DNA from: Rhodospirillales bacterium
GTDB taxonomy: Bacteria > Pseudomonadota > Gammaproteobacteria > Nevskiales > Nevskiaceae
Assembly: GCA_903970615.1 (NCBI GenBank)
Contig: CAJCJH010000018.1
Coordinates: 1 to 42,744 of the forward strand
Direction of reading: 5' to 3'
DNA: 42,744 bases
The notes under the pieces were generated by a model, which saw only the letters and a list, made by a program, of their open reading frames with translations, did no database searches and had not been told where the DNA came from. Below, one piece after another: positions 23,416 through 38,506 of this stretch; position 1 is the stretch's first letter; every line of letters starts with the position of its first letter. Both the position numbers and the translations under genes were made by a program.

Positions 23416-23492
23416 CGGGGCGTAGCTCAGCCTGGTAGAGCGCCTGCTTTGGGAGCAGGAAGTCGCAAGTTCGAATCCTGTCGCCCCGACCA
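23416..23492 (+). tRNA. tRNA-Pro (anticodon UGG)
   Basis: A full cloverleaf is visible: acceptor arms CGGGGCG/CGCCCCG, D-arm GCTC..GAGC, anticodon stem CCTGC/GCAGG around TTTGGGA (anticodon TGG), T-loop GTTCGAATC and an encoded CCA end. It is the probable integration target of the element that starts right after it. Confidence 0.97.
23451..23492 (+). other. Candidate left attachment site (attL) in the tRNA-Pro 3' half
   Basis: A tyrosine integrase gene starts 95 bp beyond the tRNA in the same direction, the usual arrangement when the 3' end of a tRNA gene serves as attB. I found no second copy of the tRNA end downstream in the window, so the exact core and attR cannot be defined. The site is inferred. 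Confidence 0.6.
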
Positions 23493-23587: not shown

Positions 23588-24778
23588 ATGGCTTCGATAA
23601 GCAAGCGGGAACATCTCGGGACTGGCGGCAAAACCGTGGTCAAATACGACGCGACAATTACGCGTCGCGGAGTACGCCGCCAAACGAAAACGTTTTCGAC
23701 GAAGGCTGCGGCTGAAATGTGGGCTCGTAGAGTTGAAGGCGACATCGAATCTGGTACCTGGACTGATCTTTCTGCCGCCAAGCAAATGACCGTCGGACAG
23801 GCTTTGGATGTGTACGTGGTTGAAGTGGTGCCGCGCTTAAAATCCGCAGCTTGCGAACCGTTCAAAGCAAAAAATTTAAAAAGCCGCTTAGGCAAGCTGC
23901 CACTTTCTGCAATTTCATCAAGCGATCTTGCCCGTTATCGAGATGCGAGACTTTCGGACCGCGTAAGGCGTCCGGTTGGAACCAAGGGCGGCGGAACGAT
24001 CGAGATTGATCGAAAGGTCTCGCCGCAGACAGTTAAACATGAACTGGGAATGCTCAATAGAGCCTTGGCCCATGTCGAGCATGAGCATGGAATTGCTTTC
24101 CCTCGGGGTCGACCACGTCTCGACCATCGACGTAGTAATGCCCTTTCTCTGCCTCCGGGGCGCGATCGCATTCTGACTACTGCGGAGACAGACCGCCTGC
24201 AGTCCGCCTGTACCTTTGGTGAAGGGAAAAGTGACGGCCCTTATGCGAGCATGAAGGCATCAAGGTCGCCTTGGTTGTGGCCGATCGTTGAGTTTGCGAT
24301 GGAGACTGCGGCCCGTCGCGGCGAAATTCTTGCCCTGCGGTGGCGTGACGTCGACTTTATTGAGGGTACCGTTACGCTCAAGAACAAGAAAACTCAGCGC
24401 AGCAAAACACCGGAAAACAGAACTATTCCAATGTCGCCGCGTGTTAGAGAAATTCTGCGTGGACTCCCTAATTCATCAGACCCTTCCAGTAATGTCTGCG
24501 GTCGGATCACTGCAAGTGCGCTTGCACAGCAGTTCAAACGGGCATTGAGGCGAGCGGAAATTTCAAATTTTCATTTTCAGGATCTTCGTCATGTTGGCGC
24601 CACCCGACTGGCTTCAATCCTGAATGGTGATCTATTGATGATTGCTGATATGACGGGACATCAGGACATTAGGATGCTTCGTCGCTATGTAGCGCCTCGT
24701 CGCGCGGAAATCGCTCGGCTACTCGATCAAGCTCCCGCAGCGATTAACCCGAAGCTTCACGTGTCTCGGCGGAAGTAA
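23588..24778 (+). CDS. Tyrosine-type site-specific integrase
   Basis: The 396-aa protein is a phage/ICE-type tyrosine recombinase that should insert and excise the element at tRNA-Pro. It has an N-terminal arm-binding part (about 1-60), a SAM-like core-binding domain (about 65-180), and a catalytic domain. Box I is visible as ETAARRGEILALRW, the Lys strand as TLKNKKTQR, box II as FQDLRHVGATRLA, then MTGHQDIRMLRRYVAP with GH and the Tyr nucleophile. The first residue of the HxxR motif is Gln (QDLR) instead of His, which is a conservative but uncommon change. ATG 23588 follows GGAG by 6 bases. The region is less GC-rich than the host genes, consistent with transfer. Confidence 0.92.
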   Translation: MASISKREHLGTGGKTVVKYDATITRRGVRRQTKTFSTKAAAEMWARRVEGDIESGTWTDLSAAKQMTVGQALDVYVVEVVPRLKSAACEPFKAKNLKSRLGKLPLSAISSSDLARYRDARLSDRVRRPVGTKGGGTIEIDRKVSPQTVKHELGMLNRALAHVEHEHGIAFPRGRPRLDHRRSNALSLPPGRDRILTTAETDRLQSACTFGEGKSDGPYASMKASRSPWLWPIVEFAMETAARRGEILALRWRDVDFIEGTVTLKNKKTQRSKTPENRTIPMSPRVREILRGLPNSSDPSSNVCGRITASALAQQFKRALRRAEISNFHFQDLRHVGATRLASILNGDLLMIADMTGHQDIRMLRRYVAPRRAEIARLLDQAPAAINPKLHVSRRK

Positions 24779-24867: not shown

Positions 24868-25131
24868 CTAACTGCGTCGAAAAATTCGCTCGATTTTTAC
24901 GAGTTCGTGTTGTTCTCGCTTCTCCATCCAGCGCATGACTGTTTCAACACGCCAGCGCAATGGACGCTGCCAATACGCCGGTGGCAATTTTTCTGGGGCG
25001 CGGCTGCGCAACGTCAGGATCGTTGCTTTCGGAATTTGGGCAAGACTTGAGAAACCTTGTATGTCTAGGACAGCCGATTCATTTGAGATTATTTGCAAGG
25101 CGTTCACAGATGGCCTGATTCGTTCCTTCAT
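24868..25131 (-). CDS. Small AlpA/Xis-like DNA-binding protein, candidate excisionase
   Basis: This 87-aa basic protein has a segment SSLAQIPKATILTLRSRAPE followed by LPPAYW..RPLRWRVETVMRWMEK. That is the layout of AlpA/MerR-like winged helix proteins (a helix-turn-helix, an LP turn, and an RW....V..W end), a group that includes recombination directionality factors. The start at ATG 25131 is my choice; the frame extends to GTG 25161 or TTG 25164. It lies between the integrase and the conjugation genes and directly downstream of a promoter shared with virB1. An excisionase role is inferred from size, fold and place. The 89 bp between it and the integrase stop hold nothing I can name. Confidence 0.65.
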   Translation of the reverse strand: MKERIRPSVNALQIISNESAVLDIQGFSSLAQIPKATILTLRSRAPEKLPPAYWQRPLRWRVETVMRWMEKREQHELVKIERIFRRS

Positions 25132-25180: not shown

Positions 25181-25225
25181 ATTTCAACACTGGACGTGAG
25201 TGGCGTCACTAGCATTTATGCTAGT
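25181..25225 (-). promoter_or_regulatory. LuxR/TraR-box-like promoter of the excisionase-like gene
   Basis: An 18-bp dyad, ACTAGCATTTATGCTAGT (25208-25225, one mismatch in the centre), is followed on the minus strand by GTGACG (25204-25209), a 17-bp spacer and TGAAAT (25181-25186). With a start at about 25174, the dyad is centred at -42.5 and overlaps the -35 by two bases. That is the standard layout of LuxR-activated promoters. A near-identical copy stands at 37843-37887. The downstream gene starts 13-43 nt after the predicted transcription start. Confidence 0.7.
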
Positions 25226-25231
25226 CGTCAA

Positions 25232-25470
25232 AAATAAAATCTGGCTTGGAAGTAAGCGTACGCTGACCACCGCTTAGAGTTAGCGGTTAAGAGTGTGGAA
25301 GATGCGTGCTCCTCCGTGGGCATATCAAGTGCCCATCTAAATTAGGTGGGCACGATGTCCCAGGATTTGTCGGGCCGGATCATGCTAGTAGCTTAGCCGT
25401 ATCGGCCGTTGCTGTTGATCCGATGCTTCGGGCATCAATGGAGAGCTGTCGCCGATCGGCATAGCGAAAA
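25232..25470. other. Non-coding stretch with iterated inverted repeats, possible oriT region
   Basis: No gene is supported here. The region holds ACCGCT/AGCGGT (25269-25287), a GTGGGCA-TGCCCA-GTGGGCAC set (25316-25353) and GATGC/GCATC around TTCGG (25422-25436). It lies between the virD4 end and the excisionase promoter, a position where an origin of transfer could be, but no known nic sequence is recognised. None of the hairpins is followed by a T-run in the leftward direction. Confidence 0.3.
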
Positions 25471-25680
25471 TCACCAGCGCGAACGGTCCTGCTGTCGCTC
25501 GAGTTCACGCACTCCCCGATGCCGGATCAATTCCGGTAACGGTTGGTCACGTAGCAGATGACCGCGGATGTAGTCTTTCGTGATCCGCTCGAATTTCAGG
25601 CGATACGCCGCATCCTTGATGAACTTCGCAGCGAAACGCAGGATCGGCAGGTTTAGCAGTGACTTCTGCCGACCCCACAC
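25471..25680 (-). pseudogene. Probable displaced C-terminus of VirD4 (frameshift) or small overlapping gene
   Basis: A 69-codon frame, one base off the virD4 frame, has coding-like codon use and a sensible sequence (ILRFAAKFIKDAAYRLKFER, then PELIRHRGVRELERQQD). In the virD4 frame the same DNA gives Pro/Cys/Ser-rich text with no character. Taking one base from the CCCC run at 25673-25676 joins the two frames as MIDQFGVGRQKSLLNLP and gives a single 738-aa VirD4 ending at 25471. I think this is the true end of VirD4, cut off by a one-base insertion or sequencing error. A GTG at 25680 could alternatively start a small separate protein. Confidence 0.6.
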
Positions 25681-27688
25681 CGAACTGGTCGATCATGAAG
25701 ACCGCATGCAGCGATCTCATTTTGTCTTCGTCCAATTCATCAGCTGGAATTTCGATACGCGAAAAATCCAGGTCTAAATCGTCAAGGTCATCCTTCATGG
25801 TTTCAGCATTGCTCTCGTCTGTCATCGATCGGCGATCCGCCGACAAGGGAACCGTATATAAATCCGGCTGGTCTGCACCCGGATTCAGAAAGTCATCATT
25901 ACGATCCAGGTTGAGTAGCGCTGCGAGTGAGCTCTCCGACACCGATACCGCAAACGAATTGGTTGTTTCGGAAACACTCGGTCGAGCGGTTCTTGTTGAT
26001 ACGGCTGGCTCGACATGCACTAGCTCTAGCTGTGTGCGGATTTCAAGTAAGGGAACTGCCGGCGCCCTCATCAGACGTTCTTTGAAGATTTTTTCCCGGT
26101 AGTAATAAATCTTCTTGCACTGAATCGGCGGCGTACCTTCCGTCAGTAAAAGACTATTAGTCGGCCCGATATCCCGAACTTCCTGCGGCAGCAACAAAGC
26201 CCGCGGCAGCTCGAAGCTCGATTGCGATGCCATTTTCTTGACGAAGAATCCCTTGCCCTTCGACTCCGATCGACCCTTGATCGTGTCGTAGCCCAGGCTA
26301 TCGCTGATCTCCTTGCACACCGCAAACTCCCGCGGCGCGAATACGATCTGCAGAGCATGGTTGACGATGAAGGTGTCGGCGCCATCCTTGCCGTAGACCT
26401 CCCGAATCTGTGCGGGTGATTGGATGATCGGCAGCATGCGCAGGTTGTAGCCGGCGATATAGCCGATCCCCTTGGCCAGCACATTGATCTTGCCGATCGC
26501 CGTGAACTCATCCATCAGCATCAAACAGGAATATTTCAGGGCCGGATTCTGCTGCGGTAGTTGCTGCGTATTGGCATCGAGCGCAATCTGGAACAGCAGG
26601 TTGACGATCGGCTGCAAACGATCGAGGTTGTCGGGTGTAATGCCGATGTAGACCGACATCCGGCGCGTGCGCAGTTCCCGAAGATCGAAGTCGTTGGCGG
26701 AAGTCGCCGCGTCGACGACCGGGTTCAGCCACAGCTCCAGCCGCGAGGTGAACGTTTTCTTGATCGAACTGCGGGTGTTCTCGGACGTGACGCCGATGTA
26801 ATCGTTGAGCGCGGTCTGACACTCAAGGGACAATGGATGACTAGTCTTCGCGCGAGCATCAATTATGTTGGTGAAATGCTTTGCCGTTTCGATCCGAGTC
26901 AGCGTGCAACGAAGCACCTGGCCCAGCGTGCGCGGTAGCGAGGGTGTCTCGATCAGGTACAGCACGATGCCGACAAACAGCGAACGGCAGGATGCATTCC
27001 AGATCGGATCGACATTCGGCAGATCGGGATACAGCATGTTGGCGATCTTCTGAACGCTGTTGATCCGGAACGCCGGATCATCGCTGACATAGCCGAGCGG
27101 ATTGAAGCGATGCGTGCGCCGATCGGCGGCGGCAGGGTTGAACAGAAAACAGGGCTGGCCGTGCGTGGCGCGATAGCCGGCCGTCAGATCCCAGTTCTCC
27201 TGCTTGATGTCGAGCACCACCACCGAGTCGGGCCAGTTGAGGAGATTCGGAATAACGATACCCACACCCTTTCCCGAACGGGTCGGGGCCGCCATCAATA
27301 CATGCTGCTGTCCGCCGAACACCAGAAAGCGCGAGCCACGCTTGCCGACGATGATGCCGGTATCGGACATCAGGCCGGCCTTGCGAATCTGACGCTCGTT
27401 AGCGAACCGGGCAACGCCATAGGTCGAGCGCGGCCGCTTATGTAATAGCAATAGGACAGGCAGGATCAACACACCCGCACTAAGAAACCCGGACACGGCG
27501 AGAGGTCCGTCACGCAGCTGCGGGTAGTCTCCGAAATACCTCAGCCAAATGCCGAGCCGGTAATAGCGCATCGGCACATGGATTAGCTTCAGCAGGATCG
27601 CACCGGATAGAAAAAGCCATGTCGGCAGACCCAGCGCAACGGCGGCGATTGCGATGCCCAACTTTGCCGACTTGGGGAAACCGATCAA
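25547..27688 (-). CDS. virD4: Type IV secretion coupling protein VirD4 (TraG family)
   Basis: VirD4 is the inner-membrane ATPase that brings the relaxase-DNA complex to the secretion channel. The product has two N-terminal membrane segments (about 10-36 and 63-83), Walker A APTRSGKG (134-141) and Walker B LMLMDEF (389-395), with the all-alpha domain between. The TTG start at 27688 has GAGG 7 bases upstream and lies one base after the virB11 stop. The acidic tail (KDDLDDLDLDF) is followed by a likely frameshift near 25675, after which the final ~45 residues in this frame look wrong. Activity may survive because the ATPase core is intact. Confidence 0.93.
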   Translation of the reverse strand: MIGFPKSAKLGIAIAAVALGLPTWLFLSGAILLKLIHVPMRYYRLGIWLRYFGDYPQLRDGPLAVSGFLSAGVLILPVLLLLHKRPRSTYGVARFANERQIRKAGLMSDTGIIVGKRGSRFLVFGGQQHVLMAAPTRSGKGVGIVIPNLLNWPDSVVVLDIKQENWDLTAGYRATHGQPCFLFNPAAADRRTHRFNPLGYVSDDPAFRINSVQKIANMLYPDLPNVDPIWNASCRSLFVGIVLYLIETPSLPRTLGQVLRCTLTRIETAKHFTNIIDARAKTSHPLSLECQTALNDYIGVTSENTRSSIKKTFTSRLELWLNPVVDAATSANDFDLRELRTRRMSVYIGITPDNLDRLQPIVNLLFQIALDANTQQLPQQNPALKYSCLMLMDEFTAIGKINVLAKGIGYIAGYNLRMLPIIQSPAQIREVYGKDGADTFIVNHALQIVFAPREFAVCKEISDSLGYDTIKGRSESKGKGFFVKKMASQSSFELPRALLLPQEVRDIGPTNSLLLTEGTPPIQCKKIYYYREKIFKERLMRAPAVPLLEIRTQLELVHVEPAVSTRTARPSVSETTNSFAVSVSESSLAALLNLDRNDDFLNPGADQPDLYTVPLSADRRSMTDESNAETMKDDLDDLDLDFSRIEIPADELDEDKMRSLHAVFMIDQFGVGSAEVTAKPADPAFRCEVHQGCGVSPEIRADHERLHPRSSAT

Positions 27689-27689
27689 C

Positions 27690-28841
27690 TCAATGCCTCG
27701 CCAAACCCTGTAACGCCTGCCGCTTGCGTAAAGGGTTGTAGTAAATCTCGGTTGCGGTTTTGTGCTTCATGTGCAGCACCACATCGATGACCGTGTGCAT
27801 ATTGGCGTAAAGGTCTTCGGTGGACAGCGTCTGCCCGGTCTGCGAACTCTTGGTCAGTTTCAGCAACTCGGCGAAGGCTTCATCCGCGGAGTTGGCGTGG
27901 ATGGTCGTGATCGATCCGGAATGTCCAGAGCCCAAGCCGCGCAGATAATCCCAGGCTTCGTCGCCACGAACCTCCGACAAAAGAATGCGGCTCGGCAGTA
28001 GACGCATGCAGGCGCTCATCAGCAACTTCGGCGTGGATTTCGACACCCCCTGCCCGTTCTTTGAATAAAACAGATGCACATGATTCGGATGTTCCGGCAG
28101 CGGCAGTTCCGGGGTGTCCTCGATCGTGACGATCCGATCGGTCGCAGGGATTGCCTTGATCAGTGTCCGCGTGAGGAAGGTTTTGCCGGAGCCGGTGGCA
28201 CCGGCAATGACGATATTCTTCTCGGCAAGCACCGCGGTGCTCAGGAATTCTCCCCAGTTGCGTGATTTCAGATGGCGTAGCAATTCCATTTCTTCAGGCG
28301 AAGTCGACACATCGGCGATCAGGCGCTCGATCTCCTCGGGCGCGATCGCATTCGGTGAAGGCACACAACGAGAAAAGCGGCCGGCATCGCTGAGAGCGTC
28401 CAATGTCGATGAAGCGGTCGAGTGCTTCCTGAAGCTCAGGCACACCGTACCGGTCTGGCACGAGGGCGGAATCACGATCTGGCAGCGCTCGCCAATCAGC
28501 GGCACTCCGGCCGCGGCGAGCACCGCGACATCGGCATGAGCGGTTTCCAGGGGTAGCGAGGCCGACAGCAGATTGAACTGCTCGTCGAGTCGTTGATGCG
28601 TGTAGGTCGCAATCAGTCGTGCCAGCGCCATGCAGTAATCGAAACTCAGCACCGGTTCCTCATGGCAGGTCCAGACATCATTCGCCAGCACAAAGACTTC
28701 GCCAGGCCGGTTGATCGAGACTTCTTCTACACGTTCCCGATCCAGATAGCGGCGTACAGGTCTTAGCCAATAACGCAGCGCGGCACTGGCGGCCTCGTCG
28801 GTCGGACTAGCCGCCGCTGGCATGGGTGAGCCGAAGACCAT
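27690..28841 (-). CDS. virB11: Type IV secretion ATPase VirB11
   Basis: VirB11 is the hexameric traffic ATPase on the cytoplasmic side that switches the machine between pilus assembly and DNA transfer. The 383-aa protein has an N-terminal domain (YLDRERVEEVSINRPGEVFV) and a C-terminal RecA-like domain with Walker A GATGSGKT, the Asp box IEDTPELPLP, Walker B-like ILLSEVRGDEAWDYL and the His box SGHSGSITTIHAN. It overlaps virB10 by 35 bp from ATG 28841; a second ATG at 28823 would also work. Confidence 0.95.
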   Translation of the reverse strand: MVFGSPMPAAASPTDEAASAALRYWLRPVRRYLDRERVEEVSINRPGEVFVLANDVWTCHEEPVLSFDYCMALARLIATYTHQRLDEQFNLLSASLPLETAHADVAVLAAAGVPLIGERCQIVIPPSCQTGTVCLSFRKHSTASSTLDALSDAGRFSRCVPSPNAIAPEEIERLIADVSTSPEEMELLRHLKSRNWGEFLSTAVLAEKNIVIAGATGSGKTFLTRTLIKAIPATDRIVTIEDTPELPLPEHPNHVHLFYSKNGQGVSKSTPKLLMSACMRLLPSRILLSEVRGDEAWDYLRGLGSGHSGSITTIHANSADEAFAELLKLTKSSQTGQTLSTEDLYANMHTVIDVVLHMKHKTATEIYYNPLRKRQALQGLARH

Positions 28842-30048
28842 AGACGCCTGAGAAATCGAGATCGCGTGCGACGATCACGTTGATCTGGTCGCCCTGATTC
28901 TTGTAGAGCGTCGGCGGAATATTGATGCTGTTTTCCAGCGCGATGCTGGCCGAGTCCTTGACGGCACCCTGGGTATTCGAGGTGGATTGCACTCCTGCCC
29001 CTTGGCTCGATGCCAATACTGTAAAGGCATCGTTGACCACCGATACCAGCAGCGCGCCGCCGAAGCGCGCCCAGAAATGCGTATCCACGAATCCGCGCAT
29101 ACCGGCTGCACCGAGTCCATCGGTGCCCGGACTGCCCAGATTGATGATGACGCCATGTGGCGTTTCCGCGCGTGTCCACAGCGCAAAGATGCGCGCCTCG
29201 CCCTGCTTGATGCCGCCCGAATATTGGCCGATCAGCTGGGTCCCGCGCTCCAGCAGCACAACGCGGCCCGAGTCGGAATAAATATCTCGTGTCAGCAGAC
29301 ATTTCGTGAATCCGGGCACCGTCGTATCGAGTGCGGTTTCCAGCGTGCAATCGAGGAAGGCGCCTTCGGTCAACAGCAGATCACGATCGCCGAGTGTTGT
29401 CGCCGATACGGCAGAAAGCTTGGTCGGCGTCAGCCTGGACTCAAGCTCTTTCTGAGGCGCAGGCTGTACAGGATGCATCTGGCTGCCGATCGCGGCGATC
29501 GTCACCGCGGCTTGATCGGCGGTCATCGCACCCGTAGCCGTGCCGGCACGGGAAGGCGCGGTGGCGCTGCCCTCACGCTCTGACTGACCGCCGAATGCCA
29601 GCAAGGGCGAACGCTGACGGCGCTCGATCAGGTCGTCCGCGGCTTTCTTGTCGCGGTCGATCTGTGCCTGATCCGCTGCAGGGATAATCGGCGGTGGCAG
29701 TTGCTCGGTCCGGACCTGCTCAATGACCACAGGCTTTTTCGAATCGTGCTGCTGCATCAGCTTGGCGATGTCGAGCGCAGGGATATCGCTATCGATACGG
29801 CCCTTGTCGTTCTTGACTACGACGCCACTGCCATTGACCGGGGTGGAGTTGCTGCGGTGATGCGGCAGATACAGATACAGCATTCCGAAACCGACGAGCG
29901 CGGCAACCGTTATCAGAACGCTCTGCAACAACTTCCCGCCGCCGGTTTGCGGTCGATTGACACTCGGCACCGTGCGTTCGCCTTCCGCATACGTGGATGC
30001 TGGTGTCGGCGTCGGGCCTGGATCATGGTCATTCGATGGCAGTTTCAT
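28807..30048 (-). CDS. virB10: Type IV secretion channel protein VirB10
   Basis: VirB10 spans both membranes and links the inner ATPases to the outer core. The 413-aa protein has a short cytoplasmic tail, one membrane helix (about 40-61, LLQSVLITVAALVGFGMLYL), a flexible periplasmic linker, and a C-terminal beta-barrel domain (GAFLDCTLETALDT, VVLLERGTQLIGQY, and IPPTLYKNQGDQINVIVARD at the end). The ATG overlaps the virB9 stop as ATGA. Confidence 0.95.
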   Translation of the reverse strand: MKLPSNDHDPGPTPTPASTYAEGERTVPSVNRPQTGGGKLLQSVLITVAALVGFGMLYLYLPHHRSNSTPVNGSGVVVKNDKGRIDSDIPALDIAKLMQQHDSKKPVVIEQVRTEQLPPPIIPAADQAQIDRDKKAADDLIERRQRSPLLAFGGQSEREGSATAPSRAGTATGAMTADQAAVTIAAIGSQMHPVQPAPQKELESRLTPTKLSAVSATTLGDRDLLLTEGAFLDCTLETALDTTVPGFTKCLLTRDIYSDSGRVVLLERGTQLIGQYSGGIKQGEARIFALWTRAETPHGVIINLGSPGTDGLGAAGMRGFVDTHFWARFGGALLVSVVNDAFTVLASSQGAGVQSTSNTQGAVKDSASIALENSINIPPTLYKNQGDQINVIVARDLDFSGVYGLRLTHASGG

Positions 30049-31058
30049 GGCGAGACTCCTGCGGGCGTAGAAAGCGTTGGCAGAGCAGGCACCACGATCG
30101 GATCATGTGAGGTCACTGGCACGGCACTCACGGTTGTTGTGAGCGGCGGATAGACGTTGATCGACTCGGCTTTAACCGTTGAATCAGGATCATGTGCCGG
30201 TAGCGACGCTGGTGGCGGCACGTCCTCACCCTTGACCGTGCGGGTCACTTGGCTGGTAATCGTGCCGGTGCCGGTGGTCTTGCCGACCGGGTCGTAATTC
30301 TGGTTAACCACTTCCGCCACTTCATTACCTTTGCGCAGAATGAAGTTCCCGGAAAGGCGTTGCGCAACGATCGTGTCGCCCTTCACCGTCGTATTCAGTA
30401 GGCTTTCGGTTTTCTTGTCCTTGACGATCGTTTCGAGAAACACCGCCGGCATCTCGCGGTTGCCGCGGAAGCGGAAGTAGGTAAAGGTTCCATCGTCGAA
30501 AGTCTCATCGGGCGTCACCGTCTGACTACCGCGTGACCAATAGTTGATGTTCTTGCGCGCCGGACTTTCTGAAGTTCGGAGTGCCTCGGCGACGTCACCT
30601 TCGTGTTGTGCCTGATGCGCCAGCGTAAGAGCTGCGGCATTCGCCGCCGCCACATCGTCGGGATAGTTGAACAGCACCTTGTAGTAAAGGGGTCTGCGCA
30701 GCGGCGATTTCGGTATCGCGCTCAGCTGGAATTCGTAGGCGCGCCGCGAGGTGAGGATGCTGAGATTGGTATCTGCGTGGGTCTCGGTCGGTTTCAGGAA
30801 CAGATGGTTGTGGACTGGCGCTACTTGCCAGGCCAGCGTATCGCCGAGCGCCACTGATCTGATCTCTTCGTCGGCTTCAAAAACGATGTGCGTCGAAATG
30901 CCGTAAGTGCCGATGATCTGCACGATGTCATTGGCGTTATAGGTCACCGTCCGGACCCGGTCATCCGAGACCAGTGGATTCGGCACAGTGAGGGCGTAAC
31001 TCTCGCCATTGATCACAATCAGTGAGGCGATGAGTAAATATCGGGCAATCGGTTTCAT
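30045..31058 (-). CDS. virB9: Type IV secretion outer-core protein VirB9
   Basis: VirB9 forms the outer ring of the channel with VirB7 and VirB10. The 337-aa protein has a signal peptide (MKPIARYLLIASLIVINGES), the VRTVTYNANDIVQIIGTYGI beginning of the CagX/VirB9 fold, HLFLKPTETHADTNLSILTS, and the C-terminal domain with FDDGTFTYFRFRGNREMPAVF. The C-terminal ~60 residues after the fold are Pro/Val/Thr-rich and seem peculiar to this system. Overlaps virB8 and virB10 by 4 bp each. Confidence 0.95.
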   Translation of the reverse strand: MKPIARYLLIASLIVINGESYALTVPNPLVSDDRVRTVTYNANDIVQIIGTYGISTHIVFEADEEIRSVALGDTLAWQVAPVHNHLFLKPTETHADTNLSILTSRRAYEFQLSAIPKSPLRRPLYYKVLFNYPDDVAAANAAALTLAHQAQHEGDVAEALRTSESPARKNINYWSRGSQTVTPDETFDDGTFTYFRFRGNREMPAVFLETIVKDKKTESLLNTTVKGDTIVAQRLSGNFILRKGNEVAEVVNQNYDPVGKTTGTGTITSQVTRTVKGEDVPPPASLPAHDPDSTVKAESINVYPPLTTTVSAVPVTSHDPIVVPALPTLSTPAGVSP

Positions 31059-31864
31059 GGTGAGGCTCCTGGCGCCGGCACCGGTATGGTGCTGTCGTCG
31101 GATGGCGACTCGGCGTTTTGCAGTACGGTTTCCGGGTCGGTGCGATAGTCGCTAACCAGGAAGCCCAGTGGATTGATTTCGCGGGCCTGCTCGGCCTGCG
31201 GACTGTTGACGTAACGGAAGCTGACGGTCGCGATCCAGTCGCTTTGCGTGGTAGAGCTGCCGACGCGCTGAATGCGCCGGTAACGGATCGCCGCAGTGTT
31301 TTTTTTCAGGAACGAGATCGACTTGATCTTGGCCGCCACCTCGCCTTCGGTGTTGTAGATTTTGAGTGGCGATTTCGGATTCTTGACTGGATCGAAATAC
31401 ACCTCGTATTGCCGACGCTCGTTCGGATCGGACATCAGCGTGACTAGGTCATAATTAGATTCCGCCAGCGGGCGCGAATAACCTTCTCGCGCATGGATGT
31501 ACTCGGCGAGAAAATATTTGGTGATCGCTTCGTTGTATTCGGTGCTGCCGGTCCGCAGTGATTTGACGATATCGACAATTCCGGTGGTGTTGTCGACCCT
31601 CACCACAAAGGCATCGACCTGCTTGAGCGGTGTCAGCAGCATCACCGCCGTCACCGACAAGGCGGCGATGACACTGGCACCACCTGCAATCCACCAAGCA
31701 ACGGTCTGGCTACGTGCAGAAGTTCGCTGTCGATCGATCTCCCATGCGGTGGCTTCATCGAAGTAACGCTGTTCGTCCTGTTTGAGCACTAGTCGCTTGC
31801 GGCGCTGAAGCTTCGACGTAAGCGAATCATTCATCACTGCGCTGTCGATTACTGTCGTGGACAT
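31055..31864 (-). CDS. virB8: Type IV secretion protein VirB8
   Basis: VirB8 is an inner-membrane assembly factor with a periplasmic NTF2-like domain. The product (269 aa from ATG 31864) has a cytoplasmic tail, one membrane helix (VAWWIAGGASVIAALSVTAV) and the periplasmic domain containing KYFLAEYIHAREGY and YRRIQRVGSSTTQSDWIATV. GGAGG stands 7 bases before this ATG, which decides the start against an upstream extension to 32014 that overlaps virB7. Confidence 0.94.
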   Translation of the reverse strand: MSTTVIDSAVMNDSLTSKLQRRKRLVLKQDEQRYFDEATAWEIDRQRTSARSQTVAWWIAGGASVIAALSVTAVMLLTPLKQVDAFVVRVDNTTGIVDIVKSLRTGSTEYNEAITKYFLAEYIHAREGYSRPLAESNYDLVTLMSDPNERRQYEVYFDPVKNPKSPLKIYNTEGEVAAKIKSISFLKKNTAAIRYRRIQRVGSSTTQSDWIATVSFRYVNSPQAEQAREINPLGFLVSDYRTDPETVLQNAESPSDDSTIPVPAPGASP

Positions 31865-32055
31865 GAAATGACCTCCGGTTGGGTCGATGGCGGCGAAGCG
31901 GCATAACAGCCGCCTTGCGGCGAATTCATGCCGGTCTGCTGTTCGCCATTGATGGGGATCAGCCGGCCCTCGGGCTGCGGCGGCATGGGATGGGTCGCAC
32001 AGCCCGATAAGCACAGCGCAGCAGTGATGCTCAAGATTGAAGCAGGAGATTTCAT
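31849..32055 (-). CDS. virB7: VirB7-like lipoprotein
   Basis: This 68-aa protein has a lipoprotein signal (MKSPASILSITAALCLSGC, lipobox LSGC) and a short Pro-rich mature part. Its place between virB6 and virB8 and its size make it the VirB7 outer-membrane lipoprotein of the core complex. It contains further Cys residues (GGCYAAS and SCPRQ) that could form a disulfide with VirB9, as in Agrobacterium. It overlaps virB8 by 16 bp. Sequence similarity itself is too low to prove the name. Confidence 0.8.
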   Translation of the reverse strand: MKSPASILSITAALCLSGCATHPMPPQPEGRLIPINGEQQTGMNSPQGGCYAASPPSTQPEVISCPRQ

Positions 32056-32076
32056 AGGGTGCCTTTGGGGGTGTGA

Positions 32077-33084
32077 TCAGCCGCGGCCGATCGTGGTGCT
32101 GAAGCGGCCTGCGCGCTGGTTGCGCTGACGGGCTGCGTCCTGAATGCGTTGCATGCGCGCGAGCCGCAGTTCGGTCAGATGGCGGCCGATGGGTGTGGCT
32201 GCGAAGGCGGCGGAGCCAAGTCGGCTGCCGCCGCTGGTGAGCACCCGCCCTATGCTATTCGAGATGGCGAGCGCCACACCCGATGCCAGTGCCGCAGCGA
32301 TCTGCGGCACATGCAGAATGATGACGAAGATGAAGGCAGCCGATAACAGCAGGTAGGCCATGTCCTCGGTCGAGGGTGTGGTCTTGGCGATGGCGTTATC
32401 CGCAAAGGCATCGAAGATCTGGATCAACAGCGTCAGTACGGCGATGACCAGTACTTCGACCAGCAGGTAATTCAGACACTGTGCGATCCAGGCATCGAAG
32501 AATCTCTTGGTGGCATCGAACATCGTGCAGACGATGAACAGCGGGCCGAGTGCCACCAGAATGGTCAGCACGATTTTTGAGAGCGCGATCATGATTCCTG
32601 CTATCGCAGTAGCGCCGAAGGTCGACAGCCAGATCAGCAGCGCAATGAACAGATCGCCGACATCGCTCAAGCCGCCTGCCTGCCATGCGGCCTGCCCGGC
32701 GTTGTAGCCCTTGGTCAAGGCGATATCGAGGACCTGGGTCTGCTGGTTCTCGGTCTGGGCATTGCTGCCATTAATCAGTGTCGTCGAGAGCTCATCCGCA
32801 CCATGGGTGAGGAAGCTGGCGAGGTAGGTGTTGTAGTTGCCGGCATTCAGCGCAATGCCGGTAATGGTGACGATCTTGAGGATGCGCAGGATGCCGTCCC
32901 ACACCGGCTCTTGGATCGAGCCGCGCATCATGCTGATCCCCCACAGGATGACGTAGATCGCCATCATCGCGGTGACTACCGGCGAGATGAAGGCGATGAT
33001 CGAAACAACTCGGCTCGAAAGAAATTTCGAGAGATAGCCGTCCAGAAACTGGAAGTACCCGGTGTAGAAAGTGAGCTGCGGCAT
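32077..33084 (-). CDS. virB6: Type IV secretion inner-membrane protein VirB6
   Basis: VirB6 is a polytopic protein at the base of the channel. The 335-aa product has five or more membrane segments (for example VVSIIAFISPVVTAMMAIYV, LFIALLIWLSTFGATAIAGI, ILVALGPLFIVCTMF, LVEVLVIAVLTLLIQIF, YLLLSAAFIFVIILHV). ALGPLFI followed by a Phe/Trp-rich stretch (TKRFFDAWIAQCLNYL) is the TrbL/VirB6 signature. The C-terminus is short and basic. The 86 bp before it (up to virB5) hold no supported gene. Confidence 0.92.
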   Translation of the reverse strand: MPQLTFYTGYFQFLDGYLSKFLSSRVVSIIAFISPVVTAMMAIYVILWGISMMRGSIQEPVWDGILRILKIVTITGIALNAGNYNTYLASFLTHGADELSTTLINGSNAQTENQQTQVLDIALTKGYNAGQAAWQAGGLSDVGDLFIALLIWLSTFGATAIAGIMIALSKIVLTILVALGPLFIVCTMFDATKRFFDAWIAQCLNYLLVEVLVIAVLTLLIQIFDAFADNAIAKTTPSTEDMAYLLLSAAFIFVIILHVPQIAAALASGVALAISNSIGRVLTSGGSRLGSAAFAATPIGRHLTELRLARMQRIQDAARQRNQRAGRFSTTIGRG

Positions 33085-33170
33085 GATAGATACCTATCGA
33101 TACAGAGCAATTCGATGCAGAGTAATGGGCTGCAAAAAATCCTCTCCGAACTGAAAACGGCGATCGCAGC

Positions 33171-33950
33171 TCATGGCACCAGCCCAGATAACAGCCCGGC
33201 CGCATCCGTATGCTGCGAAGCACTGCGCAAGTGCGCCTCGGTCGACTGGTTGCCATAGGTGTCGCGTGTTGCCTGCTGCAGCTGCATCGTTGCCAGCAGA
33301 CGGATGACTTCGTTGGTCAGGAACAGCTGCTCCGCATTGATGCGGGTATCCAATTCCATGATCGACTTCACATCGGGTGCAGAATTGATGTTGTCGACGA
33401 AGGTTTGTAGCTGCGCGATGCGTGCGCCGGTTTCCTGAAAGCTCGCCTGCCCGGTGCTGTTGAACACGGCCGCCGCATCGGTCTGGCCATCGTGAATCGT
33501 CGTCACCGGGGCGCCGGCGGGGATACTCAGCTGCGAATCCGGAAATAAGCTGTTGGCGTTTTTCAAGGCTTGTGTTGCACCGGAGAGCGTTGCGTACTGC
33601 CCGCTCGATACGCCCTGCGAAAGGCCGAGCGTCTGTTGCCAGTTGAGCGGGATGTAGGCTCGATTCTGTTGCGACAACGGATCATTCAGCAGTGCCGAGA
33701 ATCCGCGCACGCCGGTGAGACTGGCGTACTGCTGCTGTTGCTGCTCCAATTGTGAAACGCCATTGGAGAGCTGGTTCTGCATCGTCTCCAGTTGCTGTAC
33801 CTCGTTGAGAATTTGCGTGATCTCGTTGACCAGCGATGCCACGTCGATCACCGGTATGCCCTGCCCTTCCGATGTCGTCGGCAGGATCGTGGTCGCAGCG
33901 AATAGGGCGCCGACTGCCATGACCAGGATTTTCTTCTTCATTGTGTTCAT
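33171..33950 (-). CDS. virB5: Type IV secretion minor pilin VirB5
   Basis: VirB5 sits at the pilus tip. The 259-aa product (ATG 33950, GGAGAG 7 bases upstream) has a signal peptide (MNTMKKKILVMAVGALFAAT) and the typical start of the mature part, GIPVIDVASLVNEITQILNE. A Gln-rich coiled-coil follows (QLEQQQQQYASLTG), then RAYIPLNW and C-terminal helices. The ATG overlaps the virB4 stop as ATGA. Confidence 0.93.
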   Translation of the reverse strand: MNTMKKKILVMAVGALFAATTILPTTSEGQGIPVIDVASLVNEITQILNEVQQLETMQNQLSNGVSQLEQQQQQYASLTGVRGFSALLNDPLSQQNRAYIPLNWQQTLGLSQGVSSGQYATLSGATQALKNANSLFPDSQLSIPAGAPVTTIHDGQTDAAAVFNSTGQASFQETGARIAQLQTFVDNINSAPDVKSIMELDTRINAEQLFLTNEVIRLLATMQLQQATRDTYGNQSTEAHLRSASQHTDAAGLLSGLVP

Positions 33951-36331
33951 GCGGGGACTCTCCGTTCGTAGAACTTGGGTAACCACAGATTCGGTTCGTC
34001 GCTAACTTCGGCGATGATCCGGTTGACCAGCTCGACATTGGCGGTGGTGCCCGACAGCACGGCCAATTCCTGCGCGAATCCTTTCAGGTCGAGCTCGGCG
34101 ACCACGCTGTTGTGGCCTTGCTTGATGAGGAACCGCCGGGATTTGTCTGGCAGCGTCCGGACGATGTCGAACTCGCGTTCGGTCAACTTGAATCCGTCGA
34201 CATAATCTTCGTGGTCGGCGGCCGCGTTCGGCATGAAGATTTTCGTCGGCGATTGCTCGATGATGGTTTTCGCAATCGGGCTTTTGAGGGTGTCGCTCGG
34301 TGACTGCGTCCCGGTGACCAGAAAGCCGTTCTGCTTGCGGATGGTCTTGAGCTTGTTCTTGGCAAAATCCTGAAACGCTTCATCGCCCATCGCCTTCCAG
34401 AATTCATCGATGAAACAGACGAAGCGCTGGCCGGTGATCAGCTGTTCCATCCGCTGAAACAGGTACAGGATGATTGGCGTTCGGGTTTCGGGATTGTCGA
34501 GAAACTCGGTGATATCGAAGCCATAAAGACGATGCCGCTCGAAATCCAGATCGTCGGTTTCGTTATCGAACACCCAGGACAGTTGTCCGCCCAGACACCA
34601 CTTCGCCAGCCGCGCACGCACGCCATCCGGATCGGTCGGGTCGAGGAACGACAGCACCTGCGAAAGTCGCCGTAGCGGCGGCGGCAGACCGTAGACATTG
34701 CGGATCGCCGCAGCCATGTTCTTCTCGTCGCGGACGCTGTAGGCCTTCACCGTATCGGCTGGCGACACTAGCGCTTTCATCAGCTTCTGCAGAATCTGCT
34801 CATATACTGGCGTCAACGCAATCTGGAATGGGTTGAATCCGGTTGGCCGGCCGGTCTGGAGCGGCATGTAGTAGCCGCCCTGCGCACGAATGAAGATTTC
34901 CGCGCCGCGGTCCTTGTCGAAGAACACCAGCCTGGGTTTGAATTTCTCCAGCTGCGCGACCAGGAAACCCTGCAGCACCGTCTTGCCGGTTCCGGAGGGG
35001 CCGATGATGGTGGTGTTACCCAGATCGTTGACGTGGAAGTTGAAGTAATACGGCCCGCCGGATGCAGTTTTGAGCAGGGCGACCGCGGGGCCCCAGTGAT
35101 TCGGTTTAGGCGCGAGTCCAGGATTTCCAGTCGGATAGTTATGCAGAGAAACAAACCCGGCAAAGTTACGGCTGCTGATCGCCGCCGGTCTCGCGCGATA
35201 GGCAAAGTTGCAGGGCAACTGCGCCCAGAACGCCGCTTCGAGTGCCAGGTCTTCGCGCGCGATCACCATGCCGCAATCGGAGAGTGTGGCCCGTGCCGAT
35301 GCGAGTGAATCGCTCAAACTCTTGATCGTGTCTGCGCGGACCAGCAGGCTCAAGTGATGATCGCCGAACACAAAGCGGTTCGAGGTAATGTCGTCGAGCG
35401 CGTCACCTAACTCTGCGATCTGGGTTTCCGCCAGATCGCCCGCACTGATCAGACGGTCGCGCTGTCGTCCGAGCCGGCCCGTGGCCGCCTGCTTGCTCAG
35501 GAATGCGAAGGACTGGCACAGGATGAACTCGTAGGGCGCTGACAACAGGCCATTCAGAAAACCGGGTGCGGTTTGCGACGGGTATTCCTTGATGCCGAGG
35601 ATTGCGCAGACCACGCTGGTTTCCGGGCCGCGCAGTTCGATCGCCTCGGTCCCGAAAAACGGTCGGCTGGTGCCGATGACATCCGACAGTGGCGCACGCG
35701 GCACCGGCATTTTCTGGGCATGGCCGTTGACCAGATAGGCGAGGAATTCCAGCGGTTCGGAATACACATGGCCGTGTTGTTCGTAGGTCGTTAGCAGCGA
35801 CGGCTCGTAGCGGCTCAGCGAGGCTTTGACCTGTTCGCAGAGATCGTCGAGCTTGGCAAGATCATCGCCCAGTTGGGCTCTGATGTCGGACTCGCTGCGC
35901 TGCTTGAAGCGATCGACCAGCTTCAAAGTATTCAATGGCTGCGGCCGATAGATGATGGTCACGTACAGCTCGTTGACCAGCATGCGCGTGCCCTGCAGCG
36001 AGCGCCGGTATTTGGCGTCGAAGTCGCGGGCGAAGCCGGCGTCGAATGTACCGCTGGGGTATGCGTTCTGAACCCGGCGGATTGTGTGGGTCCAGAGTGC
36101 GACATGGGTCGAGGCCAGATTGCGCAGCAGGATATTGAGCTGCTCGAGCCAGACATTCAGATCTTCGTCATCCGCACTTTCGTGGGCGACGCCAGCGATG
36201 CGGAAGACTCGGAAGAGGTCTTTCTGCTTCGTGCGCAGCGTCGTCGTATCGAGATGCACCGTATATGGAATGTGCATCGATAGCGGCTTCTCGCGGTTGA
36301 TGATTTTGTGATTGGCAACGGCGCTCATCAT
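33947..36331 (-). CDS. virB4: Type IV secretion ATPase VirB4
   Basis: VirB4 powers pilin extraction and substrate transfer. The product (794 aa from ATG 36331) has the CagE/VirB4 N-terminal domain (about 1-430) and a C-terminal ATPase domain with Walker A GPSGTGKT, GRPTGFNPFQ, Walker B FVCFIDEFWKAM and the TGTQSPSDTLKS motif. The start is set by GGAG 9 bases upstream. An in-frame extension to 36475 runs back into virB3 and is not real. Gap to virB3 is 20 bp. Confidence 0.96.
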   Translation of the reverse strand: MMSAVANHKIINREKPLSMHIPYTVHLDTTTLRTKQKDLFRVFRIAGVAHESADDEDLNVWLEQLNILLRNLASTHVALWTHTIRRVQNAYPSGTFDAGFARDFDAKYRRSLQGTRMLVNELYVTIIYRPQPLNTLKLVDRFKQRSESDIRAQLGDDLAKLDDLCEQVKASLSRYEPSLLTTYEQHGHVYSEPLEFLAYLVNGHAQKMPVPRAPLSDVIGTSRPFFGTEAIELRGPETSVVCAILGIKEYPSQTAPGFLNGLLSAPYEFILCQSFAFLSKQAATGRLGRQRDRLISAGDLAETQIAELGDALDDITSNRFVFGDHHLSLLVRADTIKSLSDSLASARATLSDCGMVIAREDLALEAAFWAQLPCNFAYRARPAAISSRNFAGFVSLHNYPTGNPGLAPKPNHWGPAVALLKTASGGPYYFNFHVNDLGNTTIIGPSGTGKTVLQGFLVAQLEKFKPRLVFFDKDRGAEIFIRAQGGYYMPLQTGRPTGFNPFQIALTPVYEQILQKLMKALVSPADTVKAYSVRDEKNMAAAIRNVYGLPPPLRRLSQVLSFLDPTDPDGVRARLAKWCLGGQLSWVFDNETDDLDFERHRLYGFDITEFLDNPETRTPIILYLFQRMEQLITGQRFVCFIDEFWKAMGDEAFQDFAKNKLKTIRKQNGFLVTGTQSPSDTLKSPIAKTIIEQSPTKIFMPNAAADHEDYVDGFKLTEREFDIVRTLPDKSRRFLIKQGHNSVVAELDLKGFAQELAVLSGTTANVELVNRIIAEVSDEPNLWLPKFYERRVPA

Positions 36332-36351
36332 GTGTTTGATCTCCGTAGGTG

Positions 36352-36690
36352 TCAGAGGCAGAGCAGCTGCCACACCCGCTCCTGGAGCGCATCTTTGCGG
36401 CGTGCTGCGAAGGGCTGATACGAACTGGCTTTCCAGTAGCGCCGGTTGAAGCACGCACCTTTGGTCTTCGCCCACAAGGCCACCAGACTAAGCATGCGTG
36501 GCTCGTTCTTGCACAAGCCCCAGGCAATGCCGTGCAGAGGCAGGACCATCAGCAGATACAGGGGATTGTTGGCGAACAGATAGGTCAACGCCGAAATCAT
36601 CATGTTGGCGGTGAAGAAATTCATCGTCACCCCGAACATCATGGCTGGGCGTGTCGCGCCGATGAACAACGGTTCGTGATTGAGGGCCAT
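36352..36690 (-). CDS. virB3: Type IV secretion protein VirB3
   Basis: VirB3 is a small inner-membrane partner of VirB4. The 112-aa product starts MALNHEPLFIGATRPAMMFG, where PLFIGATRP is the family hallmark, and has two hydrophobic segments (residues about 17-55). The ATG overlaps the virB2 stop by one base (TGATG), so translation is probably coupled. Confidence 0.93.
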   Translation of the reverse strand: MALNHEPLFIGATRPAMMFGVTMNFFTANMMISALTYLFANNPLYLLMVLPLHGIAWGLCKNEPRMLSLVALWAKTKGACFNRRYWKASSYQPFAARRKDALQERVWQLLCL

Positions 36691-37055
36691 CAGGTCGATG
36701 AACCGCCGCCATTGGTGGTCAGGAAATCGACGATGGTCGTTGCGCCATTGGCGACGATGATGCCGGCACCGACCTTGGCGACCAGACTCCATTCCATCTT
36801 GCCGAAGCCGGCGGCAAGGCCCATGACGATGATTGCGATCACGCTGAGCGGTCGAAGCACCGCATTGAATTCGGCCAGAAGGCTGGTGGCAGTCTTGGTC
36901 CAGACCTCGGTGGTTTGTGCGATTGCGGGATCGGTCAGTACGACTTGCATCGCGATCAAAGCAAGCACCGGTAAAGCGGGCTTCGCTGAGTTTGCAAGGC
37001 GTGATGCGTTCAATCTGATCTGGCTAAGCGCGGGTAGTAACAAGTAATTGGTCAT
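36690..37055 (-). CDS. virB2: Type IV secretion major pilin VirB2
   Basis: VirB2 is the pilus subunit. The 121-aa prepilin has a long signal peptide with probable cleavage after DPAIA (residue about 46), giving a mature peptide of ~75 aa with two hydrophobic helices (LRPLSVIAIIVMGLAAGFGK and KVGAGIIVANGATTIVDFL). This is the usual TrbC/VirB2 layout. Ends in GGGSST. Confidence 0.93.
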   Translation of the reverse strand: MTNYLLLPALSQIRLNASRLANSAKPALPVLALIAMQVVLTDPAIAQTTEVWTKTATSLLAEFNAVLRPLSVIAIIVMGLAAGFGKMEWSLVAKVGAGIIVANGATTIVDFLTTNGGGSST

Positions 37056-37105
37056 AAATTTCTCAAGTAAAGGCAGCGTGATAACGAACGAAGTGCTCGT
37101 AATAC

Positions 37106-37720
37106 TTAGGGGTTGTCAGATCGGTAGACGTTGGCTCCGCCATCCGTATCGAATACATCAATGGCGGTTGCGACAACGACGACAGGGATTGATCGAGTCG
37201 GCGTAGCGCGGCGTGCTCGCAGCACGGCATCGACATATCCGTTTCGGAATCCCAAGGTGGGATTGCCAGTGTTGTAGTAGGACAAGGCGGTCAGTACCGG
37301 CTGTTTTACGCCGGCATTTTGTGCCGTTATGAAGCCAGCACTCAGCAAAGCAGCTGAGGCGGAAAGGTTTTTGCAGTCGTCGAATGCGTCGGCAACGCTC
37401 AAGTGAAAATGCTTGAGATTACGAACATTGATCTGGCCCAGGCCAAGATCGAGGTCATATCCTTGGTCGATAAGCCACTGCGCGGTGCGAATGGCGTCTT
37501 CCCGGTTGCCGGGTTGATATGCGAGTTGCCGGGGGCCGTTGACTTGGATGGCGAAGACATTCCCGCCACTCTCGAAGTCGATGATGCGTGCCATTGTGCT
37601 GACCGTAATCGTGGGCGCACAGCGCGCGATGGTCTGCGGCAACGACTCGGCAGCGGCGGTGAGATTGGGAATACACAGCAATGCCAGTATCGGCATTACT
37701 GACTCAAAGTATTTCTTCAT
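37106..37720 (-). CDS. virB1: Type IV secretion lytic transglycosylase VirB1
   Basis: VirB1 opens the peptidoglycan for assembly of the secretion apparatus. The 204-aa product has a signal peptide (MKKYFESVMPILALLCIPNL, then TAAAE) and an SLT domain: MARIIDFESGGNVFAIQVNG with the catalytic Glu in FESGG, DLGLGQINVRNL, and LTALSYYNTGNPTLGFRNGY. I start at ATG 37720 because the signal peptide begins there; the frame is open back to 37849. It is the first gene of the leftward operon and lies about 115 nt after the predicted LuxR-box promoter. Confidence 0.93.
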   Translation of the reverse strand: MKKYFESVMPILALLCIPNLTAAAESLPQTIARCAPTITVSTMARIIDFESGGNVFAIQVNGPRQLAYQPGNREDAIRTAQWLIDQGYDLDLGLGQINVRNLKHFHLSVADAFDDCKNLSASAALLSAGFITAQNAGVKQPVLTALSYYNTGNPTLGFRNGYVDAVLRARRATPTRSIPVVVVATAIDVFDTDGGANVYRSDNP

Positions 37721-37842
37721 GGTCTTGCTGACCGGCAGGGTCTGTTGATGAGCCTTTGAAAGGGATTCCGAAAGCCATCTGCACGAATGCAATAGGGCGT
37801 TGTCGGAAGACTTCACGGACATGCAGCTTTTCCGCGAAGAAG

Positions 37843-37887
37843 ATTTCAACAGCCGAGAGGAGCGCCGTCACTAGCATTAATGCTAGT
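37843..37887 (-). promoter_or_regulatory. LuxR/TraR-box-like promoter of the virB operon
   Basis: ACTAGCATTAATGCTAGT (37870-37887) is a perfect 18-bp palindrome. On the minus strand it is followed by GTGACG (37866-37871), 17 bp and TGAAAT (37843-37848), the same pattern and spacing as at 25181-25225. The predicted start is at about 37836 and the dyad centre at -42.5. The surrounding bases are also conserved (TTTATTT before, GACG and GTTGAAAT after). It lies between virB1 and the divergent NTF2-like/luxR pair. Confidence 0.75.
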
Positions 37888-37981
37888 CATCGCAAATAAA
37901 CTTTCGGACATGCCATGGGTGTCATTTGGCACACATCGCATTTTTTTCGTCGGTCTGGCTCCACAACGCAGGAGCATCCGC

Positions 37982-38506
37982 ATGGCAAACGAAAGCTTTA
38001 TTCCAGCAGTGGATTTTCAGAACACCATCAGCGGTTTTGTCGAGGCATTCAACGTCAATGACCTCGATACAACGATGACGTACTTCGCGGACGAGGCGGT
38101 TTATTTACCCGGCGATGGCAAGCAATATCGAGGACGATCGGAAATACGTGCGGCATTCAAGCCTCAGTTTTCGTTGGCCTGGGGCCGGATGACGTTCGAC
38201 GAACATGATCGAATCATCGACATCTCGGCACGCAAAGCGGTGATACGCTGGGTTTGCCGCCACGACTTGTCAGAAGCGACGTTCTATTCATGGTCGCATT
38301 GGCTGCAACGACTCGCTATCGGAATTTCTGTGGGCAAGCGTGCGGGCTGGGAAGGTGTGGATGTGTTTCATTTCGACGGCGCAGGCAAAATCGTCGGTAA
38401 GTTCACCTACGCCAACTACAACCGCCCACTGCTCAAGAAAGATCTGGGTTTGTCGACGGTGATCCGGAAGCAGCCTGTGCTGGTCCATGCGGCTTCAGGA
38501 ACATGA
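37982..38506 (+). CDS. NTF2/SnoaL-like protein of unknown function
   Basis: The 174-aa protein has the look of the SnoaL/NTF2-like fold: a first helix (ISGFVEAFNVNDLDTTMTYF), ADEAVYLPGDGKQYRGRSEI and a final strand region FHFDGAGKIVGKFTYANYNR. Such proteins bind small molecules or act as enzymes or dimer partners. ATG 37982 has AGGAG 7 bases upstream; the frame is open back to 37880. It is 3 bp before the LuxR-type gene, so both are almost surely one transcript. A role in the signal chemistry or in modulating the regulator is possible but only inferred. Confidence 0.75.
   Translation: MANESFIPAVDFQNTISGFVEAFNVNDLDTTMTYFADEAVYLPGDGKQYRGRSEIRAAFKPQFSLAWGRMTFDEHDRIIDISARKAVIRWVCRHDLSEATFYSWSHWLQRLAIGISVGKRAGWEGVDVFHFDGAGKIVGKFTYANYNRPLLKKDLGLSTVIRKQPVLVHAASGT

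Follow-up and report, generated by a model that had tools for sequence, protein, structure and literature searches.

Matching putative LuxR-type boxes ahead of virB genes and a candidate excisionase gene in a presumed integrative and conjugative element of a Nevskiaceae genome

Does an integrated element place its excision and transfer genes under the control of its own LuxR-type protein? The question is raised by a 42,744-nt stretch of DNA, hereafter the window (positions 1 to 42,744 of contig CAJCJH010000018.1, assembly GCA_903970615.1, family Nevskiaceae), which carries, next to a tRNA-Pro gene, an integrase gene, a small helix-turn-helix (HTH) gene, virB and virD4 genes of a type IV secretion system (T4SS) and a luxR-type gene. 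On a reading of its genes, this region is presumed to be an integrative and conjugative element (ICE) at tRNA-Pro. The HTH gene and virB1 are preceded by the same 18-bp dyad with the same promoter parts; the shared promoter module is genuine and conserved, and it very probably marks a regulon. We consider it probable that the transfer genes form the regulon of the element's own LuxR-type protein, acting through class II promoters.

Two near-identical dyads had been pointed out in a preliminary description of the window, and both are present, together with the promoter parts predicted around them:

25208 to 25225, no strand assigned: putative LuxR-type box 1, an 18-bp dyad (pattern ACTAGCATTWATGCTAGT)
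37870 to 37887, no strand assigned: putative LuxR-type box 2, an 18-bp perfect dyad (pattern ACTAGCATTWATGCTAGT)
25204 to 25209, minus strand: predicted -35 hexamer GTGACG of promoter 1
25181 to 25189, minus strand: predicted extended -10 element TGTTGAAAT of promoter 1, predicted start at about 25174
37866 to 37871, minus strand: predicted -35 hexamer GTGACG of promoter 2
37843 to 37851, minus strand: predicted extended -10 element TGTTGAAAT of promoter 2, predicted start at about 37836

Read along the minus strand, the dyad is followed in both blocks by GACG, then by 17 nt and TGAAAT, with the final two bases of the dyad opening GTGACG. The GTGACG-17-TGAAAT arrangement proposed earlier was recovered at both dyads; with TGAAAT taken as the -10 hexamer, the dyad centre is placed at -42.5. 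Both copies belong to a 58-nt block (25181-25238 and 37843-37900) that is 79% identical, as given by a repeat finder among the 20 of 50 families listed. Box 2 faces virB1, and box 1 faces the HTH gene, which encodes 87 amino acids (aa) and probably starts at 25131; its spacing from the box then equals that in the relative G015 described below. The TTTATTT motif, previously counted as an upstream part of the module, is kept at the G015 virB site but absent from the G015 mobilisation (mob) site and from G014, G012 and G011. When the window was shuffled 100 times with its dinucleotides preserved, ACTAGCATTWATGCTAGT was never matched at ≤3 mismatches, and in the whole 3.17-Mb assembly these two places were the only ones at that tolerance. 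The reversed pattern, used as a control in the same assembly and at the same tolerance, matched at 2 forward and 4 reverse places; what is noteworthy is thus the near-exactness of the dyads and their shared module, and not the number of places.

The LuxR protein was searched in 58 genomes of the family and 85 genomes of the order. Matches at E ≤ 1e-10 were found in 13 of the 58 family genomes, and six genomes matched at E ≤ 1e-70: G000, which is that of the window, and the relatives G015 (80% identity), G014 (53%), G011 (52%), G012 (50%) and G055 (47%); L numbers denote the stretches fetched around matches. When the dyad alone was scanned at ≤5 mismatches over loci chosen for encoding the LuxR, it turned up at the two homologous places of G015 and, in G014 and G011, beside a SnoaL-like gene; one 5-mismatch place in G011 (L029, position 3824) lacked this promoter. 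The G012 box came from a whole-genome dyad scan. Including a third G015 site, eight sites were compared (two in G000, three in G015 and one each in G014, G012 and G011). GTGAC was kept in all eight, and the spacer was 17 bp in seven and 18 bp in G012. An extended -10, with TGn before the hexamer, was read by eye at every site, the hexamers being TGAAAT, TGAAGT or, in G011, TTAAGT. Taking this TRAART-like hexamer as the -10, the dyad centre lies at -42.5 at seven sites and at -43.5 in G012. The dyad arms are kept; among the central four positions, the outer pair varies, and 7/8 sites have AA as the inner pair on the promoter strand. The predicted geometry is that of a class II tra or lux box, namely 18-20 bp near -42.5 and overlapping the -35. 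To our knowledge, the dyad letters match no lux, las or tra box, and in this respect the earlier suggestion of a new box type holds. It does not hold for the arrangement: an 18-bp inverted repeat over the -35 is the ordinary tra-box form (PMC3907764), a lux box is described 42.5 nt upstream of the start (PMC7585371), and overlap with the -35 is described as well (PMC1766932).

What comes closest here to a prediction put to the test was obtained with ACTRGCANNNNTGCYAGT, the dyad alone, scanned at ≤1 mismatch in the six LuxR-bearing whole genomes. Exact matches were located at five places in four genomes (two in G000, one each in G015, G014 and G011), all at element loci. One-mismatch matches occurred at 13 places, three of them at element loci: the site of the excisionase-like HTH gene of G015, the virB/SnoaL site of G012, and a new site in G015. 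Eight of the ten off-element one-mismatch dyads were inspected (L036, L039-L042, L044, L045 and L048) and had no such promoter; the remaining two (G000:C86 and G015:C11) had no composite match in the 58-genome scan described below. The new site, G015:C2:722961-722978, lies inside the same element and carries GTGACG-17-TGAAAT on the minus strand. Behind it are a NikA/MobC-like gene (PF21983, 2.4e-08; PF05713, 5.3e-07) and a PF03432 relaxase gene (1.4e-13). A search with the dyad only had given both the promoter and the gene content that the regulon idea requires, and the promoter parts outside this query recur across the eight sites, the spacer length differing in G012. ParA- and KorB/ParB-like genes were also observed just upstream of the third box (L052, 7231-9110).

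To describe specificity, a composite pattern (dyad plus promoter), derived from the sites, was run against the 58 genomes of the family with up to 3 mismatches allowed. At ≤1 mismatch it was found at seven places in four genomes (two in G000, three in G015, one each in G011 and G014), all at the element. All four genomes carry this LuxR, as had been anticipated for the motif and this LuxR clade, and every other match has 3 mismatches. Box and promoter are specific enough at this tolerance (LuxR genomes only, 4/58) that sister elements could be recognised by them. With TGn added, the composite matched 4 of 369 genomes of the class at ≤2 mismatches, G000 exactly and three others at 2, and the control gave 2 matches. 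The LuxR itself, searched in the same 369 genomes at E ≤ 1e-30, returned G000 only (1/369). Viral contigs gave no relative, either by pattern or by alignment, and a LuxR scan of the genome_contigs collection gave one weak, uninformative locus. In the plasmid collection, 456 records matched the LuxR, every one below 60% identity, and identity was 24-28% among the matches listed (40 of 456).

G015 is the closest relative: its block from integrase to luxR is syntenic with the window, and the module precedes the small HTH gene and virB1 in the same way. The genes that the box faces in G014 and in G012 are virB2-virB4, virB1 not being recognised there. The expectation that the motif would precede both virB1 and the small gene in relatives was therefore borne out on the virB side in G015, G014 and G012 (there with the 18-bp spacer), and on the side of the small HTH gene in G015 only. 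Likewise, the proposed coupling of excision with conjugation finds an excision-type gene behind a box in two of the five box-bearing elements (G000 and G015), but not in the other three. The G015 element is located in tRNA-Pro(CGG), and a 47-bp stretch of the 3' part of this tRNA gene is repeated at its far end; measured between their starts, the two copies are separated by 76,945 bp, and the relaxase gene lies between them. Integrase, T4SS, relaxase and attachment-site repeats are present in one element, which is accordingly predicted to be an ICE from its gene content. The 16-kb block from integrase to luxR was also considered as a whole, relaxase-less island, which was dropped because the tRNA-end repeat is 77 kb away, and protein secretion instead of conjugation was set aside, for G015 only, given its relaxase. 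Other genes of the G015 element included matches to DndA, DndC and DndD and an AbiEi/AbiEii pair (PADLOC; L027, 14380-19408 and 5915-7646), as well as a second integrase-like gene right after luxR, matched in two frames (L026, 19291-20000; L027, 291-1366). In G011, type III restriction and methylation genes were observed near the SnoaL-luxR pair (PADLOC; L028, 12634-19318).

Both domains of the regulator encoded in the window, PF03472 and PF00196, scored above cut-off. Seven residues that we take, from TraR and LasR, to line the ligand pocket are kept (Y, W, Y, D, P, W and G at alignment columns 61, 65, 69, 78, 79, 93 and 113), the exception being F at columns 65 and 69 in G055 only; the window protein was also aligned with LasR. 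No LuxI (PF00765) was found above cut-off in the six genomes with LuxR orthologues, whose assemblies are 91-98% complete; scores below cut-off were 20.6 bits in G000, 22.9 in G014 and 22.2 in G055. The regulator thus looks like a LuxR solo. Because the pocket residues are kept, its putative ligand is probably an acyl-homoserine lactone. A SnoaL-like gene is adjacent to luxR in 5/6 orthologous loci, its relative orientation being changed in G012, and our guess is that its product is a ligand-handling partner.

From these data, we infer the following mode of action. A dimer of the liganded LuxR would bind the 18-bp dyad (approximately ACTRGCANNNNTGCYAGT), which overlaps a weak -35, and would touch RNA polymerase and fire class II promoters of the form GTGACR-17-(TGn)TRAART. 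Those of the window would serve the excisionase-like gene and a virB1-virB11-virD4 operon; in G015, the third would serve the NikA/MobC-like gene and the relaxase gene. A single signal could in this way activate excision, nicking of the DNA and the channel at once. With no LuxI above cut-off in the genome, neighbours, or some source that is not LuxI, would supply the ligand. A wider proposal, in which a LuxR solo acts as direct master switch of an ICE through the boxes at its excisionase, relaxosome and VirB/D4 genes, signals of other bacteria trigger transfer of the whole element, and the SnoaL-like protein supplies, modifies or removes the ligand, is plausible enough to be put forward tentatively, although we would not favour it over its negation. 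Whether the element listens to its neighbours is, with no LuxI found, a directly testable question.

Several published systems resemble this one in part. TraR of Ti plasmids controls traCDG/traAFBH and traI-trb through class II promoters that carry 18-bp inverted repeats (PMC3907764, PMC7690428). The likeness lies in the 18-bp inverted-repeat box over the -35 and, as proposed here, in one LuxR-type regulator for relaxosome and T4SS-type operons (PMC3907764); in contrast, no LuxI was found above cut-off here, the channel is of VirB rather than Trb type, the element is integrated, and an excision-type gene is added. By its sequence features, the system would work like a TraR regulon with an excision-type gene. 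In ICEMlSym and ICEMcSym of Mesorhizobium, quorum sensing induces excision and conjugation; TraR acts there on traI1 and traI2-msi172-msi171, and the excisionase RdfS is reached via FseA (PMC5882170), whereas here a box stands directly before the excisionase candidate, the T4SS genes and, in G015, the mob genes. SetCD of SXT/R391 and AcaCD of IncA/C are likewise element-encoded activators with a dedicated motif, through which they control transfer genes and, in mobilised islands, excision genes, but they are FlhCD-like master activators and not ligand-sensing LuxR proteins (PMC4542580). If the proposed regulon is real, it would bring the tra-box logic of Ti plasmids to an integrated element, with excision as a direct target and no FseA relay. 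No account of such a regulon was seen among the matches listed from PMC titles and abstract openings, a scope that leaves aside the subscription literature.

The observations gathered in this and the following paragraph weigh against the regulon or one of its parts. In the ACTRGCANNNNTGCYAGT scan, the reversed control was commoner than the matches in each of the six genomes (7-16 versus 2-4), and one-mismatch dyads by themselves consequently mean little. With the composite at ≤3 mismatches, something matched in 27/58 genomes and the reversed control was common too, controls being as frequent as matches at loose tolerance. Because the sites themselves supplied the composite, independent evidence lies only in its absence elsewhere, and common descent confounds the co-occurrence of box and LuxR. 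The start predicted for the G015 mob promoter is about 3 nt before the ATG, so that translation would be leaderless or begin later. The G011 box faces no clear gene: ahead of it is a 118-aa open reading frame (ORF) without family, beyond which a type III restriction gene lies on the opposite strand, and in this genome virB11 and virD4 are oriented towards luxR. Across their whole assemblies, G014, G012 and G011 contain a single box each when ≤1 mismatch is allowed; a regulon with several promoters is hence seen in G000 and G015 only, and these single boxes lowered our confidence by a small step. In G055, the 13.4-kb contig has only a 3-mismatch dyad and no promoter-like box. Lastly, no PF03432 relaxase was detected in the G000 assembly, other relaxase families being outside this search, so that the element of the window may be incomplete, immobile or equipped with another relaxase.

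The excisionase identity of the 87-aa gene is a weak point. Its protein had no Pfam family above cut-off, in the window or in G015; the PHROG 66 excisionase profile matched it at E 0.1 in the window and E 0.04 in G015; and its structure model (pLDDT 63) had no match in the PDB at E ≤ 0.001, Foldseek returning two matches only (E 7.8 and 9.5). At the G012 integrase/excisionase-like locus, which is not on the LuxR contig, no box was found. The gene may accordingly encode another HTH regulator or be cargo, with conjugation coupled to something else; the best PHROG match of the window protein, a function-unknown family (E 0.01), and the unmatched model agree with this alternative, which we consider rather unlikely and which can be true together with the proposed role of the boxes. 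Against it, the gene adjoins the integrase gene and is convergent with it in G000 and G015, where the proteins are 55% identical, and an excisionase profile is among its weak matches. Moreover, among its homologues (11 places in 8/58 family genomes), those of G040, G009 and G012 have an integrase homologue within about 1 kb, but none was found within the fetched 1.5 kb in G025, G038 and G032. Position and weak profile matches thus make the gene a candidate excisionase. The composite was located at ≤6 mismatches beside these homologues in G000 and G015 only; the other nine places (seven distinct stretches, two pairs of which overlap) had none, and L111, L113 and L114 contained 3-mismatch dyads without promoter.

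The dyad could, alternatively, be mainly an autoregulatory operator of SnoaL-luxR, with a secondary or repressive effect on the virB genes. A box is indeed just upstream of the SnoaL-like gene in G000, G015, G011, G014 and G012; it is the sole box in the last three, and in G011 this gene is its only clear neighbour. We nevertheless regard this explanation as improbable, given that GTGAC-(17/18)-TGn-TRAART is directed away from SnoaL in all five loci and that boxes with the same directional promoter parts lie far from luxR, at the excisionase-like gene (G000 and G015) and at the mob genes (G015). Even less probable is binding of the dyad by a different regulator, of the element or the host, with other targets for the LuxR, for which G055 speaks, having a 47% identical LuxR and no promoter-like box nearby, but which sits poorly with the co-occurrence of box and LuxR across 50 to 80% LuxR identity and with an 18-bp inverted repeat over the -35 being the known tra-box form of this family (PMC3907764).

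The proposed LuxR regulon is set in the following gene map. Positions 1 to 23.3 kb of the window are chromosome-like according to the Pfam domains of their genes (DNA polymerase III alpha, RNase HII, LpxB/LpxA/LpxD-type, Omp85, EF-Ts, ribosomal protein S2, GlnD and DapD-type). After tRNA-Pro, the order is integrase, the convergent HTH gene, virD4 and virB11 to virB1, with the SnoaL-like and LuxR genes divergent from the virB genes:

23416 to 23492, plus strand: tRNA-Pro(TGG), presumed insertion site and left element end (ARAGORN; chromosomal genes to its left)
23588 to 24778, plus strand: tyrosine integrase (Pfam Phage_integrase, 9.5e-20)
24868 to 25131, minus strand: small HTH protein of 87 aa, candidate excisionase (orthologue at the same position in G015)
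25547 to 27688, minus strand: virD4 coupling protein (Pfam T4SS-DNA_transf, 8.8e-109)
27690 to 28841, minus strand: virB11 (Pfam T2SSE, 3.5e-22)
28807 to 30048, minus strand: virB10 (Pfam TrbI, 1e-51)
30045 to 31058, minus strand: virB9 (Pfam CagX, 1.8e-56)
31055 to 32014, minus strand: virB8 (Pfam VirB8, 8.7e-52)
32077 to 33084, minus strand: virB6 (Pfam TrbL, 4.1e-46)
33171 to 33986, minus strand: virB5 (Pfam T4SS, 1.1e-35)
33947 to 36475, minus strand: virB4 (Pfam CagE_TrbE_VirB, 3e-53)
36352 to 36792, minus strand: virB3 (Pfam VirB3, 4.4e-25)
36690 to 37055, minus strand: virB2 pilin (Pfam TrbC, 2.1e-14)
37106 to 37720, minus strand: virB1 lytic transglycosylase (Pfam SLT, above cut-off)
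37982 to 38506, plus strand: SnoaL-like protein (Pfam SnoaL_2, 2.9e-12, on ORF 37880-38506)
38510 to 39298, plus strand: LuxR-type regulator (Pfam Autoind_bind, 9.2e-24; GerE, 1.2e-05)

No virB7 was recognised by Pfam in the window. VirB1 also matched the NCBIfam VirB1 model at 4.6e-23, yet under the cut-off of that model; its ORF opens at 37849, and the probable start at about 37720 was chosen by eye. The ATG at 37982, likewise chosen by eye, is the probable start of the SnoaL-like gene, rather than one within the dyad. The contig stops before any right element end is seen. To the right of luxR, a 97-aa ORF without family was observed, and IS21-type genes (istA/istB) are located at 39856-42208, between luxR and the contig end, where a last stretch resembles, by eye, part of another tyrosine integrase.

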